From: Actinomycetes bacterium | GTDB taxonomy: Bacteria; Actinomycetota; Acidimicrobiia; Acidimicrobiales; JABEUL01 | Direction: 5' to 3' | Assembly: GCA_021777355.1 (NCBI GenBank) | Contig: JAJYDO010000004.1 | Span: forward strand, 1 to 63,026 | Length of the DNA stretch: 63,026 bases | Shown: positions 1 to 12,464 of the stretch, in pieces | Numbering within the stretch: the first letter of the stretch is position 1 | How the letters are laid out: each line of letters starts with the position of its first letter | Position numbers and translations under genes: made by a program | Notes under the pieces: model-generated | Told to the model about the DNA's origin: nothing | The model's database searches: none | What the model saw: the letters and a program-made list of their open reading frames with translations, nothing else

Positions 1-87
1 AAGGCATTACCACTACGACCACATGACTGGCATGGCGAGTGGAACTACAATATTGGACAAGTGGGGCGACGGAACGTGCCCAAGTAG
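1..87 (+). CDS. possible C-terminal tail of a transposase (partial)
   Basis: An open frame enters from the left edge and encodes 28 residues before a TAG at 85-87. It contains the string HDWHGEWNYNI. From memory this resembles the end of ISAzo13/Rhodopirellula-type DDE transposases, which often finish with a W/F-HGEWNY-I motif. Nothing upstream is visible, so the call rests on this short motif. The frame overlaps the first 49 bases of the methyltransferase gene. That would fit an insertion sequence whose end lies at or inside the 5' part of that gene. Confidence 0.35.
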   Translation, partial: KALPLRPHDWHGEWNYNIGQVGRRNVPK

Positions 88-3000
88 TTCATTCTCGGAG
101 CCTAAGTCTTGTAGGGAAAGACTTAGTCAGCGGTCTAGGTTTTGGAATATCTACAATTTCAGGTCGCTCCAATGTGCTCACTATTGATGGAAGTACTAAA
201 CGTGCTGTAGCGGTATTTCTATACGATGGTGAGACCTTTGAGGATTCACTTGAAAGTTTTAATGGGACCACTGCGGTTTCCCATGCACTTGCAGTTGCCG
301 ACAAAGAAAACCTTCCGTGGGTGGTGCTAACTCGTGGGAGAGAGATCCGACTTTATGCGGCAAAACCTGATGTTGGAGTTGGAAGAAAAGGCCGCTCTGA
401 GACATTTGTCGAGGTCAATTTATCATTACTACCAGATGACAAGGCCGGTTATTTAACCCTCTTATTTGGTGCAAATGCACTCCGTTCCGGGGGGACATTA
501 GAAGAGGTTTTGGAAAGATCAGAGGACTTTTCAGCATCATTAGCCATCAGACTTCGACAGCGAGTTTACTTTGATACAGTTCCGGCTCTAGCGACAGCGA
601 TTGCAAAACGCCTAGATAATACAACGACTTTAAGTGAAAAGGATCTCCAGGCTGCCTACGAGCAAACTTTGGTCATATTATTTAGACTTCTCTTCGTAGC
701 CTACGGTGAAGATCGTGACTTACTCCCATACAGGTCGAACTCCAAATACGCTGATCATTCTCTGAAACGAATTGCGAGACATCTAAGTGATGATCTTCGT
801 AATGACGCAATAAATTTTGACCCAGAGGCATCAGATCTTTGGGAGGATGTGGTCCAACTTTGGGGAGCAGTTGACAAAGGAAACACATCCTGGGGGCTAC
901 CAGCCTACAACGGCGGTTTGTTTTCCGGTGAAGCCGATGTTAATCACTCTGGTGCAGCACTGGCGGGAATAAGGCTACAAGACTCCGAATTTGGGCCTGC
1001 TTTATTAAGTCTTCTAGTCGATGAAGGCCCAGATGGAGTAGTTGGACCTGTAGATTTTAGAAGTCTTTCAGTTAGAGAGTTCGGGACAATATATGAAGGA
1101 CTCCTAGAATCCATGCTATCTGTAGCTCAAAGTGACCTTACAGTGGACAAAAAAGGTGACTATGTTCCTGCTCGCGAAAAGGACACCGTAGAGTATCCAG
1201 CTGGAACTATCTACTTCCACAACCGTTCAGGAGCGAGGAAATCTTCAGGATCTTATTTCACAAAGCCATTCGCAGTTGAACACCTTCTCGACCAAGCATT
1301 AGAGCCAGCGCTTGACAAACATCTTGAGCGCATTTCAGCATTGCTAGATGATGGAGACGATGCAAAAGCAGCTGATTTGTTCTTCGATTTTCGATGCGTT
1401 GATCTGTCGTGTGGATCTGGTCACTTTTTAGTCGCAACTGTTGATCGAATTGAAGCCAGATTTGCCAACTTCTTAAGTATGCACCCGATTCCAGCAGTGA
1501 CTAAAGAGTTAGTTCTCTTAAAAAATGCTGCAAGAGAACATCTTGGAGACTTGGCAGACAGCGTCGAGATTGAAACCACAAGTTTGTTGAGAAGACAGGT
1601 AGCAAGACGCTGTGTTTATGGCGTAGATGCCAATCACATTTCAGTCGAATTGGCTCGATTGGCGATTTGGATTCATACATTTGTCCCTGGACTCCCACTT
1701 TCGTTTTTAGACCATTCCTTGAGGCATGGGGACTCACTAACAGGGATAGGAACACCTGAGGAAGCATTAGATGTTGTTGATCCAAAAGCTAAAAGAAGCA
1801 TTGACGGCTCGCTTTACCGCACTGGTCTCGAAGAGTTCCTTGGCAGAGCCTCTAATTCCCTACGTCGACTAGCGACTATTTCAGAGAGTAGCTCGCAAGA
1901 AATTAAGGAGGCACGAAAAGCTCACCTGGAAGCGCAAGAAGCAGTGAAACCAGCTCGTCAACTCTTTGATTTGATCGTTGCTGCAAGAGTAAATGGACGA
2001 AATAATCTAATAGAGATTTCTGAAGAAAGACTGGCAAATAATATATATCTTTCAGATGCTGAAAAGACCGTGGCAAAGCTCACATCGCTCCATTTCCCTA
2101 TTGCTTTCCCAGAGGTGTTTATTCGCGAAAATCCTGGTTTTGATTGCATATTAGGTAATCCACCCTGGGAAAAGGCGAAAGTAGAGGAGTTAGGATTTTT
2201 CTCTCTCCGATATCCGGGTCTCCGGAGTTTAAATCAGGCGCGTCAACGGGACAGGATAGGCTATTTACGTACTAGCCGGCCCGATCTTGTCATGGAGTAT
2301 GAGGCGGAGGTAAAAATAGCACAATCTGTCAGAAAGCTCCTTCTTGCAGGACCTTACCCAGGGATGGGGCAAGGGGATCCCGATCTGTATAAAGCATTTG
2401 CCTGGCGCTTTTGGAGCTTGATTAGGGAGGGAGGCCATATAGGAGTAGTTCTTCCACGCTCAGCCCTAACTGCCAAAGGGAGTGCTCCCTGGCGCCTGGA
2501 GATTCTCGATCACGGTTGTTTCAAAGATGTCACCATGATCCTTAACAATGCCCAGTGGTTCTTTGAAGATGTGCACCCGCAATATACCATCGGTCTTGTG
2601 ACTATAACTAAAGGTGATGAATTTGTAGGAGATATTGGAATTAGGGGACCCTATAATTCTCTACCTGCATATGAATCAGGCATGAAGATTTCGACGACAG
2701 AATTTAAAGCAAGTGATTTTAAGTCCTGGTCTGAAGGAGCTTCATTCCCACTAATTCCAAGTGACGCTGCCTCTAGAGTGTTTAGAAAGTTGCGTTCACA
2801 CCCACGCCTTGGCAATGGTGGCGATTGGAGTTGCAGACCATATGCTGAATTTCACCCGACTCATGATAAACACCTGTTTGAACTAGATCCAACCGATACA
2901 GCAGGACTCTGGCCTGTATACAAGGGTGCTTCTTTTGATATTTGGGAACCAGATCGGGGATTGTCGCACTATTATGCTTTCGCTGATCCCAAAAAGGTAC

Positions 3001-3638
3001 TGCCCGTTCTTCAGGCGAAGAGGAAAAACAGTGCCAGAGGAAGAAGCGGAGTCTTTTCGGGATTCTCAGCCAGTTTCATAAATGACCCCAATACGTTGCC
3101 GTGCCTGTCACCTCGCATAGCCTTTCGAGATATTACTCGTTCGACGGATACGCGAACTTTGAGAGCTTGCCTAATACGACCCGAGGTTGTGATCACAGGT
3201 AAAGCACCGTACCTATTATGGCCGAAAGGTGATGAGCGAGATCAAGCCTATTTGCTTGGTGTTCTTTGTTCAATGCCGCTCGACTGGTACGGACGATGTG
3301 TTGTGGAGATTGACGTGACCTATTACCTTTTTAATGCTCTCCCTATCCCTCGACCCAGCCGAGACGATCCCATTAAGCGACGAATTGAAATTATTGCAGG
3401 CCGTCTGGCTACCCCAACTGAGGAATTCAGTAATTGGGCAAAAGCCGTAGGAGTTGAAGTTGGATCCGTCACCGATGATGAAAAGCCGGAACTCGAAGCT
3501 GAACTCGAAGCTTTAGTTTCTCGTCTTTATGGCCTAAACGAATCTGACATTAAGGTCATATATGACACGTTTCACGTTGGTGCTGATTATTCAGATAGGT
3601 GTAAATCTGTGCTTAAGTACTTCAGGCTAAATAAGTGA
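39..3638 (+). CDS. Eco57I-like N6-adenine DNA methyltransferase of a restriction/defence system
   Basis: This 1199-residue protein probably methylates adenine in DNA, marking self DNA for the helicase-nuclease encoded next to it. The SAM-binding motif I (DLSCGSGHFL) lies near residue 455 and the catalytic motif IV (NPPW) near residue 707, the order and spacing of large Eco57I/type IIG-like methylases. The long N-terminal part shows no nuclease motif I recognise. The C-terminal half probably holds target recognition. The GTG start at 39 is the first usable start after an in-frame stop at 24-26, so the protein may be N-terminally shortened by an upstream insertion. Its stop overlaps the helicase start (GTGA), implying translational coupling. 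DrmMI of DISARM systems is a similar large methylase, but no drmA or drmB is visible here. Confidence 0.8.
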   Translation: MELQYWTSGATERAQVVHSRSLSLVGKDLVSGLGFGISTISGRSNVLTIDGSTKRAVAVFLYDGETFEDSLESFNGTTAVSHALAVADKENLPWVVLTRGREIRLYAAKPDVGVGRKGRSETFVEVNLSLLPDDKAGYLTLLFGANALRSGGTLEEVLERSEDFSASLAIRLRQRVYFDTVPALATAIAKRLDNTTTLSEKDLQAAYEQTLVILFRLLFVAYGEDRDLLPYRSNSKYADHSLKRIARHLSDDLRNDAINFDPEASDLWEDVVQLWGAVDKGNTSWGLPAYNGGLFSGEADVNHSGAALAGIRLQDSEFGPALLSLLVDEGPDGVVGPVDFRSLSVREFGTIYEGLLESMLSVAQSDLTVDKKGDYVPAREKDTVEYPAGTIYFHNRSGARKSSGSYFTKPFAVEHLLDQALEPALDKHLERISALLDDGDDAKAADLFFDFRCVDLSCGSGHFLVATVDRIEARFANFLSMHPIPAVTKELVLLKNAAREHLGDLADSVEIETTSLLRRQVARRCVYGVDANHISVELARLAIWIHTFVPGLPLSFLDHSLRHGDSLTGIGTPEEALDVVDPKAKRSIDGSLYRTGLEEFLGRASNSLRRLATISESSSQEIKEARKAHLEAQEAVKPARQLFDLIVAARVNGRNNLIEISEERLANNIYLSDAEKTVAKLTSLHFPIAFPEVFIRENPGFDCILGNPPWEKAKVEELGFFSLRYPGLRSLNQARQRDRIGYLRTSRPDLVMEYEAEVKIAQSVRKLLLAGPYPGMGQGDPDLYKAFAWRFWSLIREGGHIGVVLPRSALTAKGSAPWRLEILDHGCFKDVTMILNNAQWFFEDVHPQYTIGLVTITKGDEFVGDIGIRGPYNSLPAYESGMKISTTEFKASDFKSWSEGASFPLIPSDAASRVFRKLRSHPRLGNGGDWSCRPYAEFHPTHDKHLFELDPTDTAGLWPVYKGASFDIWEPDRGLSHYYAFADPKKVLPVLQAKRKNSARGRSGVFSGFSASFINDPNTLPCLSPRIAFRDITRSTDTRTLRACLIRPEVVITGKAPYLLWPKGDERDQAYLLGVLCSMPLDWYGRCVVEIDVTYYLFNALPIPRPSRDDPIKRRIEIIAGRLATPTEEFSNWAKAVGVEVGSVTDDEKPELEAELEALVSRLYGLNESDIKVIYDTFHVGADYSDRCKSVLKYFRLNK

Positions 3639-6600
3639 CACTTGACCCAAAGCCTGATTTTGCTACTAATCGACCTGGAGAGAGGGTCGCTGATGCAATT
3701 GTTGGCTTTCTAGAGGGGCTGCAAGAAAAACTTAGCGTAGCACCACAAGTATTAATTGCTTCAGCGTATTTTAATCCCGCTGGATTTGAATTACTCGCAG
3801 ACTCTTTGGAGAAATGTGGGTCAGTGAAGCTTCTTTTAGGAGCTGAACCCCTAAGGCGTGATAATCATATTCGAAGTCTAAAATCTTCTATTGGTCCAGC
3901 TAGAGCGAGTAGTGAAAGACTTAAAAGTGCACTATCAGACCATACTGCAACTATGGCAGTCGATCGTGACTTACTCGGCTTTACCTTTGAAGCCGATGCT
4001 TCTGCGAGACGACTAGTTAAGTGGTTGGAGTCAGGAAAAGTTGAGGTTCGAAGGCTTGAGAGCTCTTTCTTGCATGGTAAAGCATTCATTGTCACAACTT
4101 ATGACGAGGGGATAATAGCTGGATCATCTAACTTTACCTACGCAGGACTCGCTACAAATGTTGAGTTAAATCTTGGCAATTACGAAGCGCATGTGGTTAG
4201 AAAAGCTGGAGACTGGTTTGACGAACTCTGGGATGAGTCAGTTGAATTTGCTCTAAGTGCAATATATAAAGCCCGCTATGTGGAACACTCGCCATATTTG
4301 ATATTCCTTCGAATGCTTTTTGAGCGCTACGGTGCTGAACTAGAGGAAGAAAGGAATGGAACTGGTGTATCGAAGATCCAGCTCACTACTTTCCAGCGTG
4401 ATGGCCTGTGGAGAGCTAAGAGAATATTAGGAGACTACCATGGCGTAGTTATAGCTGACGAGGTTGGACTTGGAAAGACATATTTGGCGGGAGAGCTAAT
4501 TCGAAAGGCTGTCGAAGAGGACCGGCAAAGGGTACTTCTCATTGCCCCAGCTACTCTTAGGGACGGACCATGGGCCAAGTTCTTTTCAAATCAGCAACTT
4601 GGAGTTGAGAAGATCTCTTTTGAAGAACTTGCAGATGACGTAAATCTTAACCCTGATGCAAGAGGGAGCTATCTCAAGAATAAGCCAAAAGAGTATTCAA
4701 TGATTGTCATTGATGAAGCTCATGCCTTAAGGAACCCTTCAACTCTGAGAGCTAATGCGCTAAGACAGCTTTTATCTGGCTCACCACCTAAAAAAGTAGT
4801 CTTGTTAACTGCAACTCCTGTGAACAATAGTCTTTGGGACCTTTACTGGTTGCTCACTTACTTTATTCGAAACGATGCAGTATTTGCTGACGCTGGAATA
4901 AAGTCCATTAAAGATCACTTTGCAGCTGCTATGGCCATGAATCCTGATGATCTTTCACCTGAGCACCTCTTTGATATATTAGATGCTGTTGCAGTACGGA
5001 GAACTAGAGAGTTTGTAAAAACTCACTATAGGAATGACACAGTTGTAATAGATGGAAACCCAGTACCAATTGTCTTTCCAACTCCAAGAGTCCGCAAAGT
5101 CACTTACGATCTCGATGATGTTCTACCTGGATTCTTTGATCGATTTGCCCATGCATTAGATGGCACTGCAGTAGGTCCTGGGGATCCAACAGTACTTTCA
5201 CTTGCCAGATATTCACCTAGCCAATACCGGTTGGATAATAATTTAGAACCCCATGAAATTCAACTCGCCGGACTTTTGAGATCAGGATTGTTAAAGCGAT
5301 TTGAATCATCAGCTCATAAATTTGCCAGAACTTGTAGGAAAATGGCGGCTAATCACGATGCTTTTCTAACACTTTTGGAACAAGGCAAAGTTGGAAAAGG
5401 TGAAGTACTTGCTGACTGGATTGCAACTGATGCAGACGATGAAGAGGAGATGAACGAGTTTTTGTCTGCTCACGCCCTTGCCTTAGACTCGGCCAGTGAA
5501 TACGATGCCGAGCTACTCTCAGCAAATGCCGCATCGGACCGAGATCTTCTTTTAAGTTTTGCTGGGGTTGCAGAAAGTGTAGAGCCCGCCACAGATCCAA
5601 AGCTTTCCCAGCTAATTGAGGAATTAGCAGAGATTGCACAAGAGGCTAAATCAGAAGGTATCGGAGAGGTAGATGCCCGAGATAAACGCAAAGTACTAGT
5701 ATTTTCCTACTTTGCTGACACGGTGGAGTGGATTGCTAATTTTGTTTTGGAGAAGGTAAATGCAGATCCTCGGTTGGCCGACTTTAAAGGAAGAGTCACA
5801 AGTATCTCAGGTACTGGTGGATCTAAACATGAAGTTCTTTGGGGATTTGCTCCACGGACCACTGAAGCACCACCTGGGGCTGATGAGGATAAATACGACA
5901 TTGTTGTCACAACTGATGTATTAGCTGAAGGCGTGAACTTGCAACAAGCACGCCATATTATTAATTACGACCTTCCATGGAACCCAATGCGCCTGGTACA
6001 GCGTCATGGTCGAATTGACCGAATCGGCTCCAATCATAAGGAAGTATTCCTACGGTGCGTATTTCCAGATGCTCAACTAGATGACCTTCTAGGCTTAGAG
6101 GAACGCCTTCACCGAAAAATTGCTCAAGCTGCTGCTGCAGTTGGAGTGGCAGAAATTCTTCCTGGAAGTCGAGCTAATGAAATAAATCTTGCAGATTCCA
6201 GAGAAGAGATTGAAAGACTGAGACACGAGGACGCATCTTTATTTGAAAAAGGCGGAAGTGGCCGTTCATCGCTATCAGGCGAAGAGTATCGGCAGGAGTT
6301 AAAAACAGCTCTACAACATAGCGATCTGGCAGAAAGTATTCGCCACCTCCCGTGGGGGTCAGGATCCGGAATGGCCATTAGTAACTATGGGGGGGAGCCA
6401 GGGTTTGTCTTCTGTACACGAATTGCAGATCATCCAAGGCCAGTTTTCCGGTTTATCCCTTCATCAAATCTAAGTCAGCCTCCAGTTAGGGATACCCTTA
6501 CCTGCATTGACATGGCTCGACCACGAGATGGATTTGACACGCCAAGAGTATTAGATGACAACACGGCTGAAGGAGCTTACGTGGCCTGGACTCGTGCGGT

Positions 6601-6949
6601 AGATGACATAGTGGAGAAATGGAATGAAGCAGCTGATCCTGCAAATCTTGCCCCATCTATACCACTTGCAATGCATCGAGCCGCTAAATTAGTGCTTGAC
6701 CACCGACCTAATGAAATGACAATTGAGGCCTCCGAGAAACTAATAGATGCTCTTCAGGCTCCTTACCCGGAGCGAATTGTCCGGTTAGTTCGATCGTTAC
6801 TTTCGACGGATGCTGTTCCTGAAGAAATTGTGAGACTAATTGACAAAACGGTCACTGAACTTGGACTCGAACCAAGCCCTCCTCCAACTCCGCTTCCAGA
6901 GATCACATCAGTCGATGTAAATCTTATTTGTTGGACAGCACTCGTTTAA
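3635..6949 (+). CDS. PLD-nuclease/SNF2-family helicase fusion
   Basis: This 1104-residue protein joins a phospholipase D-like domain to a SNF2/DEAD-type helicase. The PLD motif (HGKAF followed by GSSNFT) is near residues 147-165, and only one HxK copy is obvious, so an active site would need dimerisation. The helicase follows: Walker A DEVGLGKT near 275, the Walker B box DEAH near 358, the TATP motif, and a C-terminal helicase lobe ending in HGRIDRIG near 795. The start GTG overlaps the methylase stop by four bases. Family knowledge suggests a DNA translocase that cuts or blocks unmethylated DNA. Class 1 DISARM uses a SNF2 helicase (DrmD) and a separate PLD protein (DrmC); here both functions sit in one chain. 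The exact system type is not certain. Confidence 0.82.
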   Translation: MTLDPKPDFATNRPGERVADAIVGFLEGLQEKLSVAPQVLIASAYFNPAGFELLADSLEKCGSVKLLLGAEPLRRDNHIRSLKSSIGPARASSERLKSALSDHTATMAVDRDLLGFTFEADASARRLVKWLESGKVEVRRLESSFLHGKAFIVTTYDEGIIAGSSNFTYAGLATNVELNLGNYEAHVVRKAGDWFDELWDESVEFALSAIYKARYVEHSPYLIFLRMLFERYGAELEEERNGTGVSKIQLTTFQRDGLWRAKRILGDYHGVVIADEVGLGKTYLAGELIRKAVEEDRQRVLLIAPATLRDGPWAKFFSNQQLGVEKISFEELADDVNLNPDARGSYLKNKPKEYSMIVIDEAHALRNPSTLRANALRQLLSGSPPKKVVLLTATPVNNSLWDLYWLLTYFIRNDAVFADAGIKSIKDHFAAAMAMNPDDLSPEHLFDILDAVAVRRTREFVKTHYRNDTVVIDGNPVPIVFPTPRVRKVTYDLDDVLPGFFDRFAHALDGTAVGPGDPTVLSLARYSPSQYRLDNNLEPHEIQLAGLLRSGLLKRFESSAHKFARTCRKMAANHDAFLTLLEQGKVGKGEVLADWIATDADDEEEMNEFLSAHALALDSASEYDAELLSANAASDRDLLLSFAGVAESVEPATDPKLSQLIEELAEIAQEAKSEGIGEVDARDKRKVLVFSYFADTVEWIANFVLEKVNADPRLADFKGRVTSISGTGGSKHEVLWGFAPRTTEAPPGADEDKYDIVVTTDVLAEGVNLQQARHIINYDLPWNPMRLVQRHGRIDRIGSNHKEVFLRCVFPDAQLDDLLGLEERLHRKIAQAAAAVGVAEILPGSRANEINLADSREEIERLRHEDASLFEKGGSGRSSLSGEEYRQELKTALQHSDLAESIRHLPWGSGSGMAISNYGGEPGFVFCTRIADHPRPVFRFIPSSNLSQPPVRDTLTCIDMARPRDGFDTPRVLDDNTAEGAYVAWTRAVDDIVEKWNEAADPANLAPSIPLAMHRAAKLVLDHRPNEMTIEASEKLIDALQAPYPERIVRLVRSLLSTDAVPEEIVRLIDKTVTELGLEPSPPPTPLPEITSVDVNLICWTALV

Positions 6950-7251: not shown

Positions 7252-8637
7252 TCAGAGCGTGAGCGCTCGGCTAAAAGCAAAAGTCGAGTTTAGATCCCAT
7301 GGAATTACACTGGCTTGAACGTTATCTGCGCACTGAAGGTCGACGCTCACGACAGAAAAGTTAGGGCCATCATGTAGGATGCGAAGCAGGTCTGAAATAA
7401 CTAGTGAGCCAGCAAATGCACCTACAAATGCCGCTCCAACATTTACCCCAGCAATTTCAAGCATCCCACAACGGACAGCATCTTCCTTGCCTCCTTCTCT
7501 AATCAGATTGTCAATCTCATTTTCGTAAGCATTCGACAAGACCGGGGAGGCCAGACTTCTTTCTGGGAAAGCTTCCGCTGGGCCTTGAATCGCAGGAAAG
7601 GTGTGAGTGGTGATACCTAAGTAGTTGGAATATCCTGATCCGAGTCCTCCGTCAACCACTCGCAAGAATCCTCCATTACCCAGGTCTAGACGAGGACTTC
7701 GCTTGTCGAATCCCGAAAGGGCAACTGTCGGTTCATTACGCGTCCTGTCCAAGCGGAATGTGCTGTCGAATGCTCTCTCCACGATCGTTGTTTCGAAGCG
7801 TAGGCTCTCGAGAGCCGACGCCACTACGCGTGTCTTCCGACGATCAATCACGTTATCTGATCCATTAACGAGTAGCTGGGTTGCAATGTTGCCTTTTACA
7901 ACTTTGTCGAAGTCGATAAGTCCAACGTGCGTTTCTTTAGGGTTTTCATATGGCAACATGCCAAGAACCCATGAATACGCTTGCCCAAGATGACCAAGAC
8001 CTAGTAGCCAAATCTTGCTGGGAAGAAACTCTAAAGCAGGGCCAACTGCATTCTCATCGCGCCAGTTGCAAAGAGGATTCCAAAGTGAAATACCGATATC
8101 ACGCCGACTAGCAACTGGCTCACCTAGGGCGTTCTGAAATACTTCCGAGATTCCGAGTGCTCCAGCTGCAACACCAGCTGGCACAATACCGCTATTTTTC
8201 AAGACATGATCAAATTTTTGAACCACACCGCCTGACCAGCCTGAATACGTTATATGAAGGACCGGCTTACCGATGGGATCTTCTGGTCGAGCGACTGCAA
8301 GGGTTGGTTTGTTGGGATTAAGACTTTTGACAACCGTCCCTCCGAAAAGGTTAACCGCATCGGCAACGTTGAGCCCAAATCCCCAAGGAACGCGTAATTG
8401 GACATTCTTGCTAATCGCAACGTTTATTCCACCTAAAAATGCCCTGTGGCCTGCATTTACTATAGTGAGTAGGGCTGCTTGGGCCGCAGTGTCATCACCG
8501 ATGTCGTCACCAACGCTGACTTGGAGGACAAGGGTTTCCAAGAAATTAATAGCCTCGCGAGGACTGTTACAAGCCTTTGAGTCAACTAACAACTTTGCGG
8601 TGCGGTTTATAGTGTCCGGGTTTTCGTTCCAGCTCAT
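7252..8637 (-). CDS. ThiF/E1-like ubiquitin-activating family enzyme
   Basis: A 461-residue E1-like protein, expected to adenylate the C-terminal glycine of the ubiquitin-like partner and to form a thioester with it. The nucleotide-binding motif GLGHLG is near residue 213. The acidic strand LIDFDKVVKGN with a following TQ, near 240, matches the D-x-D...N...Q pattern of ThiF/E1 adenylation domains. A cysteine in RCGML near residue 390 is a candidate thioester residue; the other cysteines sit in less likely contexts. The N-terminal ~200 residues are not a domain I recognise. I chose the ATG at 8637, not a start 51 bases upstream. It has a GGAGGAGG ribosome site six bases before it and overlaps the peptidase stop as ATGA. 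It is the last gene of the four-gene operon. Confidence 0.82.
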   Translation of the reverse strand: MSWNENPDTINRTAKLLVDSKACNSPREAINFLETLVLQVSVGDDIGDDTAAQAALLTIVNAGHRAFLGGINVAISKNVQLRVPWGFGLNVADAVNLFGGTVVKSLNPNKPTLAVARPEDPIGKPVLHITYSGWSGGVVQKFDHVLKNSGIVPAGVAAGALGISEVFQNALGEPVASRRDIGISLWNPLCNWRDENAVGPALEFLPSKIWLLGLGHLGQAYSWVLGMLPYENPKETHVGLIDFDKVVKGNIATQLLVNGSDNVIDRRKTRVVASALESLRFETTIVERAFDSTFRLDRTRNEPTVALSGFDKRSPRLDLGNGGFLRVVDGGLGSGYSNYLGITTHTFPAIQGPAEAFPERSLASPVLSNAYENEIDNLIREGGKEDAVRCGMLEIAGVNVGAAFVGAFAGSLVISDLLRILHDGPNFSVVSVDLQCADNVQASVIPWDLNSTFAFSRALTL

Positions 8638-9125
8638 GGGAACCTCCTCCTTAAAGAAATTCGCTTTTTGGCCTCTCGTCCTGTCCATGAAGTCCAGTTT
8701 CCGCCATCGTAGCGGTGGATGCCCACCTCATATCGAGCGATTGAGTGGCACCCAAGATCTGGCAGAATCAGGGCAATGTGGCCTTTTTGTGCAATCATTG
8801 GATTTGCAGCATCGATAATGCTTTGACGTACCTGGGTGCCAGGATGAGTGTGCACGTCGCCAACGACTTTGCATTTTTCATTTTTGCAAACATCCCAAAG
8901 TTTGCTATAGGCTCGACCGTCAAAATGAATTCCACCTTTCAAACATTTAGGGTCGAGATCATCAAAATATACAACTCTACTTATAAGCCTAGGATCGCCA
9001 TCAATGTTGGCAAGAAGAAAGGCACCTGATTCCTTTATGCAATGACCGCGCGCACCTAGCTCGGCAATCATTGCATCCCAATCAGACAACCTCATCCGAA
9101 TAAGTGATCTTCTTGCTTTAAACAC
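8634..9125 (-). CDS. JAMM/JAB (MPN) metallopeptidase, deubiquitinase-like
   Basis: A 163-residue single-domain zinc peptidase. The JAMM signature is complete: Glu32 in KESG, then H92-x-H94-P followed by S102 and D105 (HTHP...SIID). Members of this family cleave ubiquitin-like proteins from partners or trim their C-termini. Its position between the E2-like and E1-like genes fits removal of the operon's own modifier. The GTG start at 9125 overlaps the E2-like stop by eight bases. An ATG ten codons later is an alternative, and neither has a clear ribosome site. No extra domain or signal peptide is seen, so it should act in the cytoplasm. Confidence 0.88.
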   Translation of the reverse strand: MFKARRSLIRMRLSDWDAMIAELGARGHCIKESGAFLLANIDGDPRLISRVVYFDDLDPKCLKGGIHFDGRAYSKLWDVCKNEKCKVVGDVHTHPGTQVRQSIIDAANPMIAQKGHIALILPDLGCHSIARYEVGIHRYDGGNWTSWTGREAKKRISLRRRFP

Positions 9126-9600
9126 CTATATACTCATCAGAATTCAAAAGTCCATGTAAGTTTTCAAGAATGAAAGTGAGATCTCGGCTGCTATTCCACG
9201 CAAAATGTGGGGCTTCTTGCTGCCAGTTAGGGTGGGCTTGAAGACCCAACCGATCCCATGGAGCGTACATGGCGTTGTCGCCAGCAACCCAACGATCAGC
9301 CCGAAAGACCAGGGCGAGTTTATCGCCCTTTGGTCGTTTATTTTGTGGTAGTGACGTGCCTGCCTCAGCATCCCAAATCCCTCCGGTAGGAGCCACATTC
9401 GGATAACCACTTAACTCGAAACGAACGACAAATTCAGTTGGGGCGCTTCCACGCGGCGCTGCTGAGATTGCGACTAAGGCAAATGGCCATTCTAAAGATA
9501 AAAGACGCCACATACCTGATTCCACACCCGACCGAAAGCCACCTCCAGCAAGGTGACCACGGAGTGTGCGTTCATCGGGAGCCATAGTTATGGCTGTCAT
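9118..9600 (-). CDS. E2-like (UBC-fold) protein without any cysteine
   Basis: A 160-residue protein placed where the E2 conjugating enzyme sits in bacterial ubiquitin-like operons. The middle shows an E2-style strand ending in SGYPNVAPT, similar to the F-x-x-x-YP...P pattern of UBC folds. It is followed by an APWDR...HPNW segment and a C-terminal helix (FILENLHGLLN). The oddity is that the whole chain has no cysteine, so it cannot form the usual thioester. It could be a non-catalytic UEV-like adaptor or could use another residue. It starts with an ATGA overlap on the ubiquitin-like gene's stop. The fold assignment is my inference from motifs and context and needs a profile or structure comparison. 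Confidence 0.65.
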   Translation of the reverse strand: MTAITMAPDERTLRGHLAGGGFRSGVESGMWRLLSLEWPFALVAISAAPRGSAPTEFVVRFELSGYPNVAPTGGIWDAEAGTSLPQNKRPKGDKLALVFRADRWVAGDNAMYAPWDRLGLQAHPNWQQEAPHFAWNSSRDLTFILENLHGLLNSDEYIGV

Positions 9601-10064
9601 CCGGCGAAGCGATCCAGGGGCACGAGATCCAGGCAGACGCTGCAGGTATCTTGATCAATTAGCGATCCGACGTGGATATCACTAGAAAGGAAATAATCAC
9701 TTCCAGGTACGACAAGCCCGTGCTTAGCAATTTGTTCGGTTGATAAGTTGGCTGCGTTCGGTCCCGAAGCCCAGTGATAAACCGTTTTTATTTTAGTTCC
9801 AGGGCCAAATTCGTGTATGAATTCGTCAGAGTTGTAACGAACTTTAACTTCAACATGGTGGCATCGACCTATGTGGATATGGTTATGGTCTCGAATCCCC
9901 GCTTCTTCGATGGTGAGGTCGAGGTCGAGGTCATCGTCAACTTCCTCAATCCAAACCTTTTCGTCCGGATCAGAATCAATTACAAGCTCTCTGACTCTGG
10001 ATGTTGCTTCGACTTCTCTAATAACCGGTTTTTCACTTGAGTAATTGTGTAAAAATAGTTCCAT
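9597..10064 (-). CDS. tandem beta-grasp ubiquitin-like protein (multiubiquitin type)
   Basis: A 155-residue protein that looks like two beta-grasp units in tandem. The first covers about residues 1-68 and ends in the strand HIHIG. The second runs from about 70 to 155, opening with the strand VEVKVRYN and closing with CLDLVPLDRFAG. This resembles the multiubiquitin domain family described by Iyer, Burroughs and Aravind next to E1, E2 and JAB genes. The chain ends in a glycine at the natural stop codon, so a conjugatable C-terminus may need no trimming. It is the first gene of the operon, starts about 50 bases below the shared operator, and overlaps the E2-like gene by four bases. It is the likely modifier. 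Confidence 0.75.
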   Translation of the reverse strand: MELFLHNYSSEKPVIREVEATSRVRELVIDSDPDEKVWIEEVDDDLDLDLTIEEAGIRDHNHIHIGRCHHVEVKVRYNSDEFIHEFGPGTKIKTVYHWASGPNAANLSTEQIAKHGLVVPGSDYFLSSDIHVGSLIDQDTCSVCLDLVPLDRFAG

Positions 10065-10110
10065 GAATCCATCTTTCTATTGTGGTATCCCCCTGACAGC
10101 ATCGGGGAGC

Positions 10111-10166
10111 GGGTATACTTTACCTCTGAGGTATATGATATCATATTTACCTTAGAGGTATATCAT
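10111..10166. promoter_or_regulatory. divergent promoter region with twin palindromic operators
   Basis: The gap between the ubiquitin-like operon and the HigB-like gene has two copies of TTTACCT-n3-AGGTATAT, starting at 10119 and 10146, exactly 27 bases apart. Each core is itself an inverted repeat (ACCTCTGAGGT and ACCTTAGAGGT). Between them is the 14-base palindrome ATATGATATCATAT at 10133-10146. The layout fits cooperative binding of two dimers of a helix-turn-helix repressor controlling both directions. The XRE-ImmA protein encoded at 10479 is the obvious candidate regulator. Confidence 0.7.
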
Positions 10167-10179
10167 TTGGCAAAAAACT

Positions 10180-10482
10180 ATGAAAATAACTTTCTACAGA
10201 GCGGCGCTCGCGTCGTTGTGTAACTCGGAACAGCGCTTGGTTGAACTTTGGGGAAAAGATGATGGGCATATGGTTGGGCGCAGATTGCTAGAGCTTCGTG
10301 CAGTAGATACGGGTAGCATCGAAAATCTCCCGAAAGTGGTTATAAAGAAGGGTAACGGGGGCGATACAACTATAGACTTCGGAGGGAAGATAATAGTCCG
10401 TGGACTAATCACGAGCGCCAACTTGGTGGAAGAAAGTATCTTGATCACTAGTATTGAGGTCAAAGGGAGTGTTCGTAAGTGA
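10180..10482 (+). CDS. HigB/RelE-like toxin component
   Basis: A 100-residue basic protein starting MKITFYRAALASLCNSEQRL. The pattern of an N-terminal strand, a charged helix pair with LCNSE, and an RRLLELRAVDT segment matches HigB/RelE plasmid-maintenance killers, which are mRNA interferases acting at the ribosome. The C-terminal strands (IIVRGLIT, ILITSIEV) fit the fold. The ATG has no clear ribosome site and lies just below the operator, so the transcript may be nearly leaderless. The stop overlaps the next gene by four bases (GTGA), typical of toxin-antitoxin pairs. It could instead be a degenerate toxin kept as a co-regulator. Confidence 0.65.
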   Translation: MKITFYRAALASLCNSEQRLVELWGKDDGHMVGRRLLELRAVDTGSIENLPKVVIKKGNGGDTTIDFGGKIIVRGLITSANLVEESILITSIEVKGSVRK

Positions 10483-11549
10483 CAAGAAGCAAACAATATC
10501 CGTATCGCCCGGACTACATGATTCCTCCTGGCGAGACATTGCGGGACAAAATCACCGGGATGAACTTATCTCAGGCTGAATTGGCGGTACGGGCAGGGAT
10601 CTCCGCCAAACATGTGAATCAAATTGTGCATGGAGTGGCACCTATCACTTTGGAGACGGCTATAGCGCTTGACCGGATTACCGGTATTCCCGCCAGTGTT
10701 TGGAACCACCTCGAGGCAAACTACCGCGAGACACTACTTCGTTATACGGCAAGTACTCTTTCAGTGGATGACCAAGCCTGGATGGATTCATTACCAATCA
10801 ACGAGTTAAAGCGACGTAAAATCCTTCCAGATGAGAAAGATCGAGTGAAGTTATTCGACGCTTTATTGTCATTTTTTGGGGTTGCCGACCGTGTAGCTTG
10901 GGATCGTATATGGAAAGGACAAGTAGCATCTTTTCGAAGGTCCAGCGCGTACCGAAGCGCTCCGGAGTCGGTAATATCATGGCTGCGAATAGCACAAATT
11001 TCAGCACAAGCAGTTAACACTGAGATGTTTTCTACCACCAAGTTTCGGAAAGTGCTCAGTGAGATCCGCTCTCTCACTTCGAACGGTGACCCCAATGATA
11101 TCGTTCCATTGTGTGCTGAGGCAGGAGTGGTAGTCGTCTTTGTTTCCGAAGTTAAGGGATGTCACATCAGCGGAGCCGCATGGTGGGCGAGTAAGAACAG
11201 AGCTATTATTTCTCTAAGTGATCGATACAAAAGGGATGATCAATTCTGGTTCTCTTTCTTCCACGAAGCGGCTCATTTACTTATGCACTCAAAGAAGGAA
11301 ACTTTCGTAGATGATGGTAAAGACAACAACATAGTCGAAGAGGAAGCCGACACATTTGCAGCGAACTTTCTAATACCACGAAATTATGAGGAGCTTTTGG
11401 TCACCCTAAAGACGGAAAGTGATGTTAGAGCTTTTGCTTCGGAAATTGGCATAGCTCCCGGAATAGTTGTGGGGCGGCTACAGCATGACCGAAAGTTGGA
11501 TTGGAGTCAAGGAAATAATCTTAAGCGCGGGTTGCGCATCATCGACTGA
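10479..11549 (+). CDS. XRE-family HTH protein with ImmA/IrrE metallopeptidase domain
   Basis: A 356-residue two-domain protein. The N-terminal ~100 residues form an XRE/HigA-like helix-turn-helix (LSQAELAVRAGISAKHVNQI, residues about 30-50). The C-terminal half has the ImmA/IrrE zinc peptidase signature HEAAH at 262-266, followed by EEEADTFAANFLIPR. In ImmA-type systems such peptidases cut a repressor to release a silenced element. Here repressor and peptidase are in one chain, which suggests self-cleavage or relief by a signal. It overlaps the HigB-like gene by four bases and probably binds the twin operator at 10111-10166, silencing both its own operon and the ubiquitin-like operon. Confidence 0.8.
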   Translation: MTRSKQYPYRPDYMIPPGETLRDKITGMNLSQAELAVRAGISAKHVNQIVHGVAPITLETAIALDRITGIPASVWNHLEANYRETLLRYTASTLSVDDQAWMDSLPINELKRRKILPDEKDRVKLFDALLSFFGVADRVAWDRIWKGQVASFRRSSAYRSAPESVISWLRIAQISAQAVNTEMFSTTKFRKVLSEIRSLTSNGDPNDIVPLCAEAGVVVVFVSEVKGCHISGAAWWASKNRAIISLSDRYKRDDQFWFSFFHEAAHLLMHSKKETFVDDGKDNNIVEEEADTFAANFLIPRNYEELLVTLKTESDVRAFASEIGIAPGIVVGRLQHDRKLDWSQGNNLKRGLRIID

Positions 11550-12387: not shown

Positions 12388-12464
12388 TGGTGGGGCTAGC
12401 TGGACTTGAACCAGCGACCTCAGCATTATCAGTGCTGCGCTCTAACCAGCTGAGCTATAGCCCC
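12388..12464 (-). tRNA. tRNA-Ile (GAT)
   Basis: On the minus strand the sequence begins GGGGCTATAGCTCAG, has the anticodon loop CTGATAA (anticodon GAT), the T-arm GGTTCAAGTCC and the acceptor end AGCCCC with discriminator A and an encoded CCA. All four arms pair normally. A tRNA-Ile downstream of gyrA in the same direction is the usual arrangement in many actinobacteria. Confidence 0.97.

Follow-up and report, generated by a model that had tools for sequence, protein, structure and literature searches.

A Cys-less E2-fold protein in a BilABCD-type operon as a candidate pseudo-E2 adaptor

The E2-fold protein BilB encoded in a BilABCD-type operon of an Actinomycetes bacterium contains no cysteine, and the position at which most of its relatives hold the probable catalytic Cys is occupied by a tryptophan. 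The operon lies in a stretch of 63,026 nucleotides (contig JAJYDO010000004.1, positions 1 to 63,026 of the forward strand), hereafter the window. On balance I lean to the view that this BilB is a Cys-less pseudo-E2 that acts as a UEV-like adaptor, and that the BilA thioester formed on the E1 would pass directly to a target held by BilB. Cys-less BIL systems probably bypass the usual E2 step when they attach their tag, since the predicted E2 fold is kept, Trp stands in the place of Cys, and the loss was repeated several times.

The four co-directional genes that run from 10064 to 7252 on the minus strand are, as judged from their sequences, a complete BilABCD (BIL, 'ISG15-like') antiphage operon. 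They follow one another in the order A-B-C-D, overlap, and match all four PADLOC models strongly. bilA (9597..10064; BilA, 2.7e-39) encodes a ubiquitin-like (Ubl) protein of 155 aa that ends in ...RFAG, and thus in the invariant C-terminal Gly expected of a Ubl; bilB (9118..9600; BilB, 1.1e-53) encodes the 160-aa E2-fold protein; bilC (8634..9125; BilC, 2.5e-54) encodes a JAB/JAMM isopeptidase of 163 aa whose residues E32, H92, H94, S102 and D105 are intact; and bilD (7252..8634; BilD, 1.7e-134) encodes the E1, its probable start being Met19 of a longer ORF (7252-8688). The adenylation motifs of BilD (GLGHLG and the D and K invariants) are present together with Cys407-Gly, where Cys407 (numbering of the 478-aa ORF; 7468..7470, minus strand) is the presumed catalytic E1 Cys. 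The operon therefore resembles BilABCD in its four genes, their order and the intact key residues of E1, Ubl and JAB, and differs from it in BilB, where the E2 Cys has become Trp and residue 89 is Arg instead of Trp. BIL systems attach their Ubl covalently to the phage central tail fibre according to the original paper as cited in PMC11364771, and the same article cites work on BilABCD in Collimonas sp. OK412. The best explanation of the window operon, and a reading that I favour somewhat as a whole, is that it is of the BilABCD type and would conjugate its Ubl to a phage structural protein. A preliminary description of this DNA had rightly seen an E2-position protein, whose Cys loss proves to be inherited, but it had not recognised the system as the known BilABCD.

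Translation of the minus strand at 9118-9600 yields 160 residues and no Cys, just as had been described, and the two segments singled out at the time, YPNVAPT (66-72) and APWDR...HPNW (113-126), are both there; the plus strand is full of stops. Because the start codon of bilB (ATG, 9600-9598) and the stop codon of bilA share bases (GGATGA), a longer N-terminus that would hold a Cys is unlikely. The overall lack of Cys is nevertheless weak evidence, since the operon's three other proteins hold 12 Cys in approximately 796 residues, from which I calculate a chance of approximately 9% of finding none in 160, and it is position 115 that counts. There, Trp115 (codon TGG, 9256..9258, minus strand) replaces the Cys of the relatives: the window reads YAPWDR where the common motif is LYxPCDR...GHxxW. 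BilB consequently lacks the Cys on which a catalytic E2 carries the Ubl thioester. Its profile matches nonetheless span nearly the full length of the protein, from residue 8 to 158 for Pfam PF24702 (3e-39) and from 5 to 159 for PADLOC PDLC03845; the Pfam label is DUF7665, 'unknown function'.

According to its AlphaFold2 model, built with 54 relatives (mean pLDDT 96), BilB is predicted to keep the UBC fold. The best PDB match of the model is the E2 chain 8tz0_C from a bacterial E1-E2-Ubl complex of solved structure (VIA Z 12.2, 129 aligned residues, 3.0 Å), and the next ones are eukaryotic E2s and UEVs, including Mms2 (Foldseek, VIA). The model of BilD (pLDDT 92) likewise finds its best PDB match in that complex, with the E1 chain 8tz0_A (VIA Z 36.5). 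The two proteins differ from those of 8tz0/8tyz in that identity is just 12-16%, and in that the window's BilB lacks the catalytic Cys138 described in a review for a bacterial E2, which I take to be the E2 of 8tz0 (PMC11354881). Sequence searches of BilB against the PDB, with the single sequence or with a profile, returned nothing credible, so that the evidence for the fold is structural only; an hhalign comparison with human UBE2D2 aligned only the WxP-helix segment (W135 with W93), which is too weak to set the register of the Cys. The E2 position initially given to the protein is thus borne out by the fold comparison, the predicted structure having a UBC fold and Z scores of up to 12.2.

The relatives to which BilB was compared comprise 18 plasmid loci found with BilB, 81 further ones found via the E1 BilD, and three from genome searches; since the operons were gathered mainly by their E1, bias by the state of the E2 is limited. 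A single-query search for BilB relatives (P0001) in genome contigs, viral contigs and phages gave none, and A1 was too diverse for patterns. Column 115 of the E2 alignment holds C in 78 of 101 sequences, the others having W (13), L (3), F (2), Y (2), S (2) or A (1); the set contains near-duplicates, and its 72 non-redundant rows divide into 53 with C and 19 without. Across these operons the E1 Cys is found in 103 out of 103, the JAB residues E-H-H-S-D in 102 out of 102, and BilA has a Gly at its C-terminus or close to it in 101 out of 101, every Cys-less operon included. C115 is the sole Cys column of the BilB family that is near-invariant outside the Cys-less lineages. It is located between beta4 and the W135 (WxP) helix motif, and a conserved His lies 8 residues downstream (His123 in the window, 9232..9234, minus strand), which is invariant in the Cys-bearing BilBs and in the Cys-less rows compared. 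The same +8 spacing separates Cys138 from His146, reported for a bacterial E2 (PMC11354881). Conservation, position relative to beta4 and the WxP helix, and spacing to the His together argue strongly that the Cys of column 115 is the catalytic E2 Cys.

Some individual loci of the set deserve mention. The bilB of Mesorhizobium sp. LNHC252B00 (L084:3543-3983) has an apparent frameshift around the Cys motif, and the other Bil genes of this locus look intact. Two loci, L056 and L101, have Ser at the E2 Cys (LPSDR); L101 (Falsiroseomonas) is a diverged lineage, and the Ser of L056 may be a sequencing error, its contig being of low coverage and its BilD nearly identical to that of the Cys-bearing L058. 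In some Cys-bearing operons (e.g. L008, L017, L064 and L100), BilA carries a short tail past the conserved Gly. All Cys-less operons but L019 end BilA exactly at the Gly, so that maturation by BilC may be unneeded in them.

The Cys was lost several times in the evolution of the BIL E2. The BilD tree was built quickly, carries no bootstrap values, is unrooted and includes two long branches, L015 and L019. Mapped on it, presence or absence of the Cys requires 8 changes, of which well supported branches force at least 5, and the AU test rejects a single origin of the Cys-less rows (p-AU 3.3e-5). A single clade of all Trp rows is not rejected (p 0.12), and Trp itself may therefore have arisen twice or not. 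As Cys characterises the E2 superfamily and is widespread in the set, loss is the natural direction of change, which an unrooted tree is nevertheless unable to prove. The window and six actinobacterial loci form a seven-row, all-Trp clade (SH-aLRT 99), which adjoins Phe-bearing (L028, L032) and Cys-bearing (L031, L090) relatives. The ratio of BilB to BilD identity comes to 1.06 for the Cys-less clade and to 1.06 ± 0.10 for pairs with the Cys, indicating that constraint is not visibly relaxed. Residues Y112, D116, R117, H123, W126 and W135 are nearly fixed in BilBs, the Cys-less ones included, and R89, A113, L120 and D155 are fixed specifically in the clade. The absence of Cys is thus an inherited state of a clade as conserved as the Cys-bearing BilBs, and not that of one decayed copy. 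It had been anticipated that homologues with a conserved Cys would point to decay: most homologues do have the Cys, but the window's lineage and several more have lost it and yet stay conserved.

The clade signature Arg89 (9334..9336, minus strand), which is Trp in 77 of the 78 Cys-bearing BilBs, co-varies with BilD residue 375, a Phe in the window (7564..7566, minus strand). The pair formed by BilB 89 and BilD 375 is R/F in 13 cases, W/W in 83 and something else in 5, and it ranks 17 among 68,684 column pairs by MI-APC. This co-variation, which is dominated by one clade, suggests that BilB still docks on BilD. The R/F pair is already found in L031 and is repeated in L019; as L031 keeps its Cys together with R/F, the R/F change probably preceded the loss of the Cys in the window's lineage.

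A pathway can be proposed on this basis. BilD would adenylate BilA at its C-terminal Gly and then form the BilA thioester on its own Cys407, while BilB would take no Ubl covalently and would instead dock, like a UEV, on both BilD and the target. A target lysine held by BilB would then attack the E1~BilA thioester directly. BilC would reverse or edit the conjugates, and the divergently oriented HTH-IrrE gene would control expression of the operon. One branch of the preliminary description, in which the E1 transfers directly and the E2-position protein is an adaptor, fits best: its Cys-less E2 is there in the sequence, and direct transfer from the E1 is what I infer from it. More tentatively, and with slightly less than even confidence, an E2-fold protein may have repeatedly shed the thioester step and now serve as a scaffold for direct E1-to-target transfer, a middle form that would have arisen by loss and would stand between E2-less systems (SAMP, Urm1) and full E1-E2 cascades.

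Other readings of the same data have to be weighed against the adaptor. The E2 Cys might be dispensable in all BIL systems, with every BilD discharging directly and BilB being mainly an adaptor whose Cys is easily lost, as the repeated independent losses with everything else intact would allow; this is unlikely, since the Cys is kept in 78 of 101 operons across many phyla, which implies selection there. It is quite unlikely that the Cys-less systems no longer form isopeptides and that BilA-loaded E1 and BilB make up a non-covalent complex or a sensor: the residue lost is indeed the one dedicated to transfer, but those operons fully conserve the residues of the JAB isopeptidase, suggesting that conjugates are still formed and cut.

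A different BilB residue could carry the Ubl, and Tyr112, Asp116 and His123 are conserved beside the lost Cys; they are, however, equally conserved in Cys-bearing BilBs and hence are not replacements. None is specific to the clade, and the two isolated Ser cases lie outside it. Among the positions that distinguish the clade in all four proteins, no Ser, Thr, Lys or Cys was found as a replacement nucleophile, and the one distinguishing His (BilC 138) also occurs in the Cys-bearing L031 and L090. The earlier suggestion that another residue replaces the Cys is not sustained, the position being W, F, Y, L, A or S and the clade having no Ser, Thr, Lys, Cys or catalytic His of its own, and I regard it as very unlikely. 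It is highly improbable that an active E2 encoded elsewhere partners BilB in the way that Ubc13 pairs with the UEV Mms2: the UEV-like structure of BilB would suit such a pairing, but no second BilB was found in the window's genome, and PF00179 and PF14461 gave no match, with both controls silent, in an assembly that is approximately 94% complete. Nor was an extra downstream gene shared across the clade found beyond shadow ORFs, one being common to L027 and L029 only. That BilB is a decayed E2 in a dying operon is scarcely credible; loss of the Cys in a single copy would look alike, and the L084 locus resembles a broken bilB, but decay of a single copy is ruled out by the same Trp in seven diverged loci, the intact overlapping ORFs and the undiminished constraint.

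The adaptor reading can be set beside other Ubl systems. UEVs such as Mms2 and UEV-1 have a UBC fold without catalytic Cys and work beside an active E2. BilB is like them a Cys-less UBC fold (Z about 9.5), and unlike them in that no active partner E2 was found for it in the approximately 94% complete assembly. Cys-less E2-like domains are therefore already known, both from eukaryotic UEVs and from the type 6e prokaryotic polyUbl operons, which encode inactive Cys-less E2/RWD-like proteins (PMC1779556). Type 6e operons, like the one in the window, combine a Cys-less E2-like fold with a Ubl, an E1 and a JAB, but are described as having a polyUbl, an E1-JAB fusion and a metal-binding protein, whereas in the BIL operon the E1 and the JAB are separate and these extras are absent. 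In archaea, SAMP forms Ubl bonds with the E1-like UbaA and without conserved E2 homologues (PMC4895103), and both SAMP/UbaA and Urm1/Uba4 resemble the proposed pathway in that a Ubl is put on protein via an E1-like enzyme with no E2, as described (PMC4895103, PMC7911844). Those pathways differ from BIL in having no E2-fold partner. The title of a 2026 paper reportedly proposes an E1 and an E2 for URM1.

The surroundings of the operon point to a probable control module and a probable defence island. Divergently from bilA, on the plus strand, a gene for a 100-aa protein (10180..10482), conserved beside Bil in L022, L024 and L025 and without a match among Pfam or NCBIfam families or PDB sequences, is followed by that of an HTH + ImmA/IrrE regulator (10479..11549; Pfam PF06114 9e-12, HTH_3 9e-8). 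The HTH of the regulator is HigA-like (TIGR02607 8.9e-12, just under the cut-off), and the protein is 63-66% identical to its L022 and L025 neighbours, being more conserved than the Bil genes in the Cys-less clade. The intergenic region (10065..10179) contains two operator-like 13-bp palindromes, on the plus strand TACCTCTGAGGTA at 10121-10133 and TACCTTAGAGGTA at 10148-10160, and TACCTCTGAGGTA is common to the window and L022 (at 3020). Because the genes at 10180-11549 travel with the clade's operon and a palindrome is common to L022, they are probably a control module. At 39-6949, matches to PADLOC models for a type IIG restriction-methylase and an HKD+Snf2 helicase mark a probable two-gene defence system, and as these genes adjoin Bil the region is probably a defence island. 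On the operon's other side lie what I take, from reading the ORFs, to be gyrA and gyrB; a tRNA-Ile(GAT) (12388-12464), a possible integration site, is found between gyrA and the defence island. In the plasmid-borne, Cys-less L016, L018 and L019, Bil is flanked by separate HTH and ImmA/IrrE genes, which stand in place of the UvrD-type helicase found alongside many Cys-bearing plasmid copies.

In the open literature searched, which missed the two main BIL papers, no report of a Cys-less BilB and no biochemistry on one was found. The thioester relay from E1 to E2 is regarded as central to conjugation of the ubiquitin type. Among the catalytic residues tested here, the E2 Cys is the one that has been repeatedly discarded, while those of the E1, the Ubl and the isopeptidase stay. 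What an E2 does besides carrying the Ubl can thus be tested directly in a compact bacterial system of four genes, for which the Cys-bearing relatives serve as matched controls, and the E2 Cys alone gives no ground for calling BIL systems inactive, or active by the textbook route.
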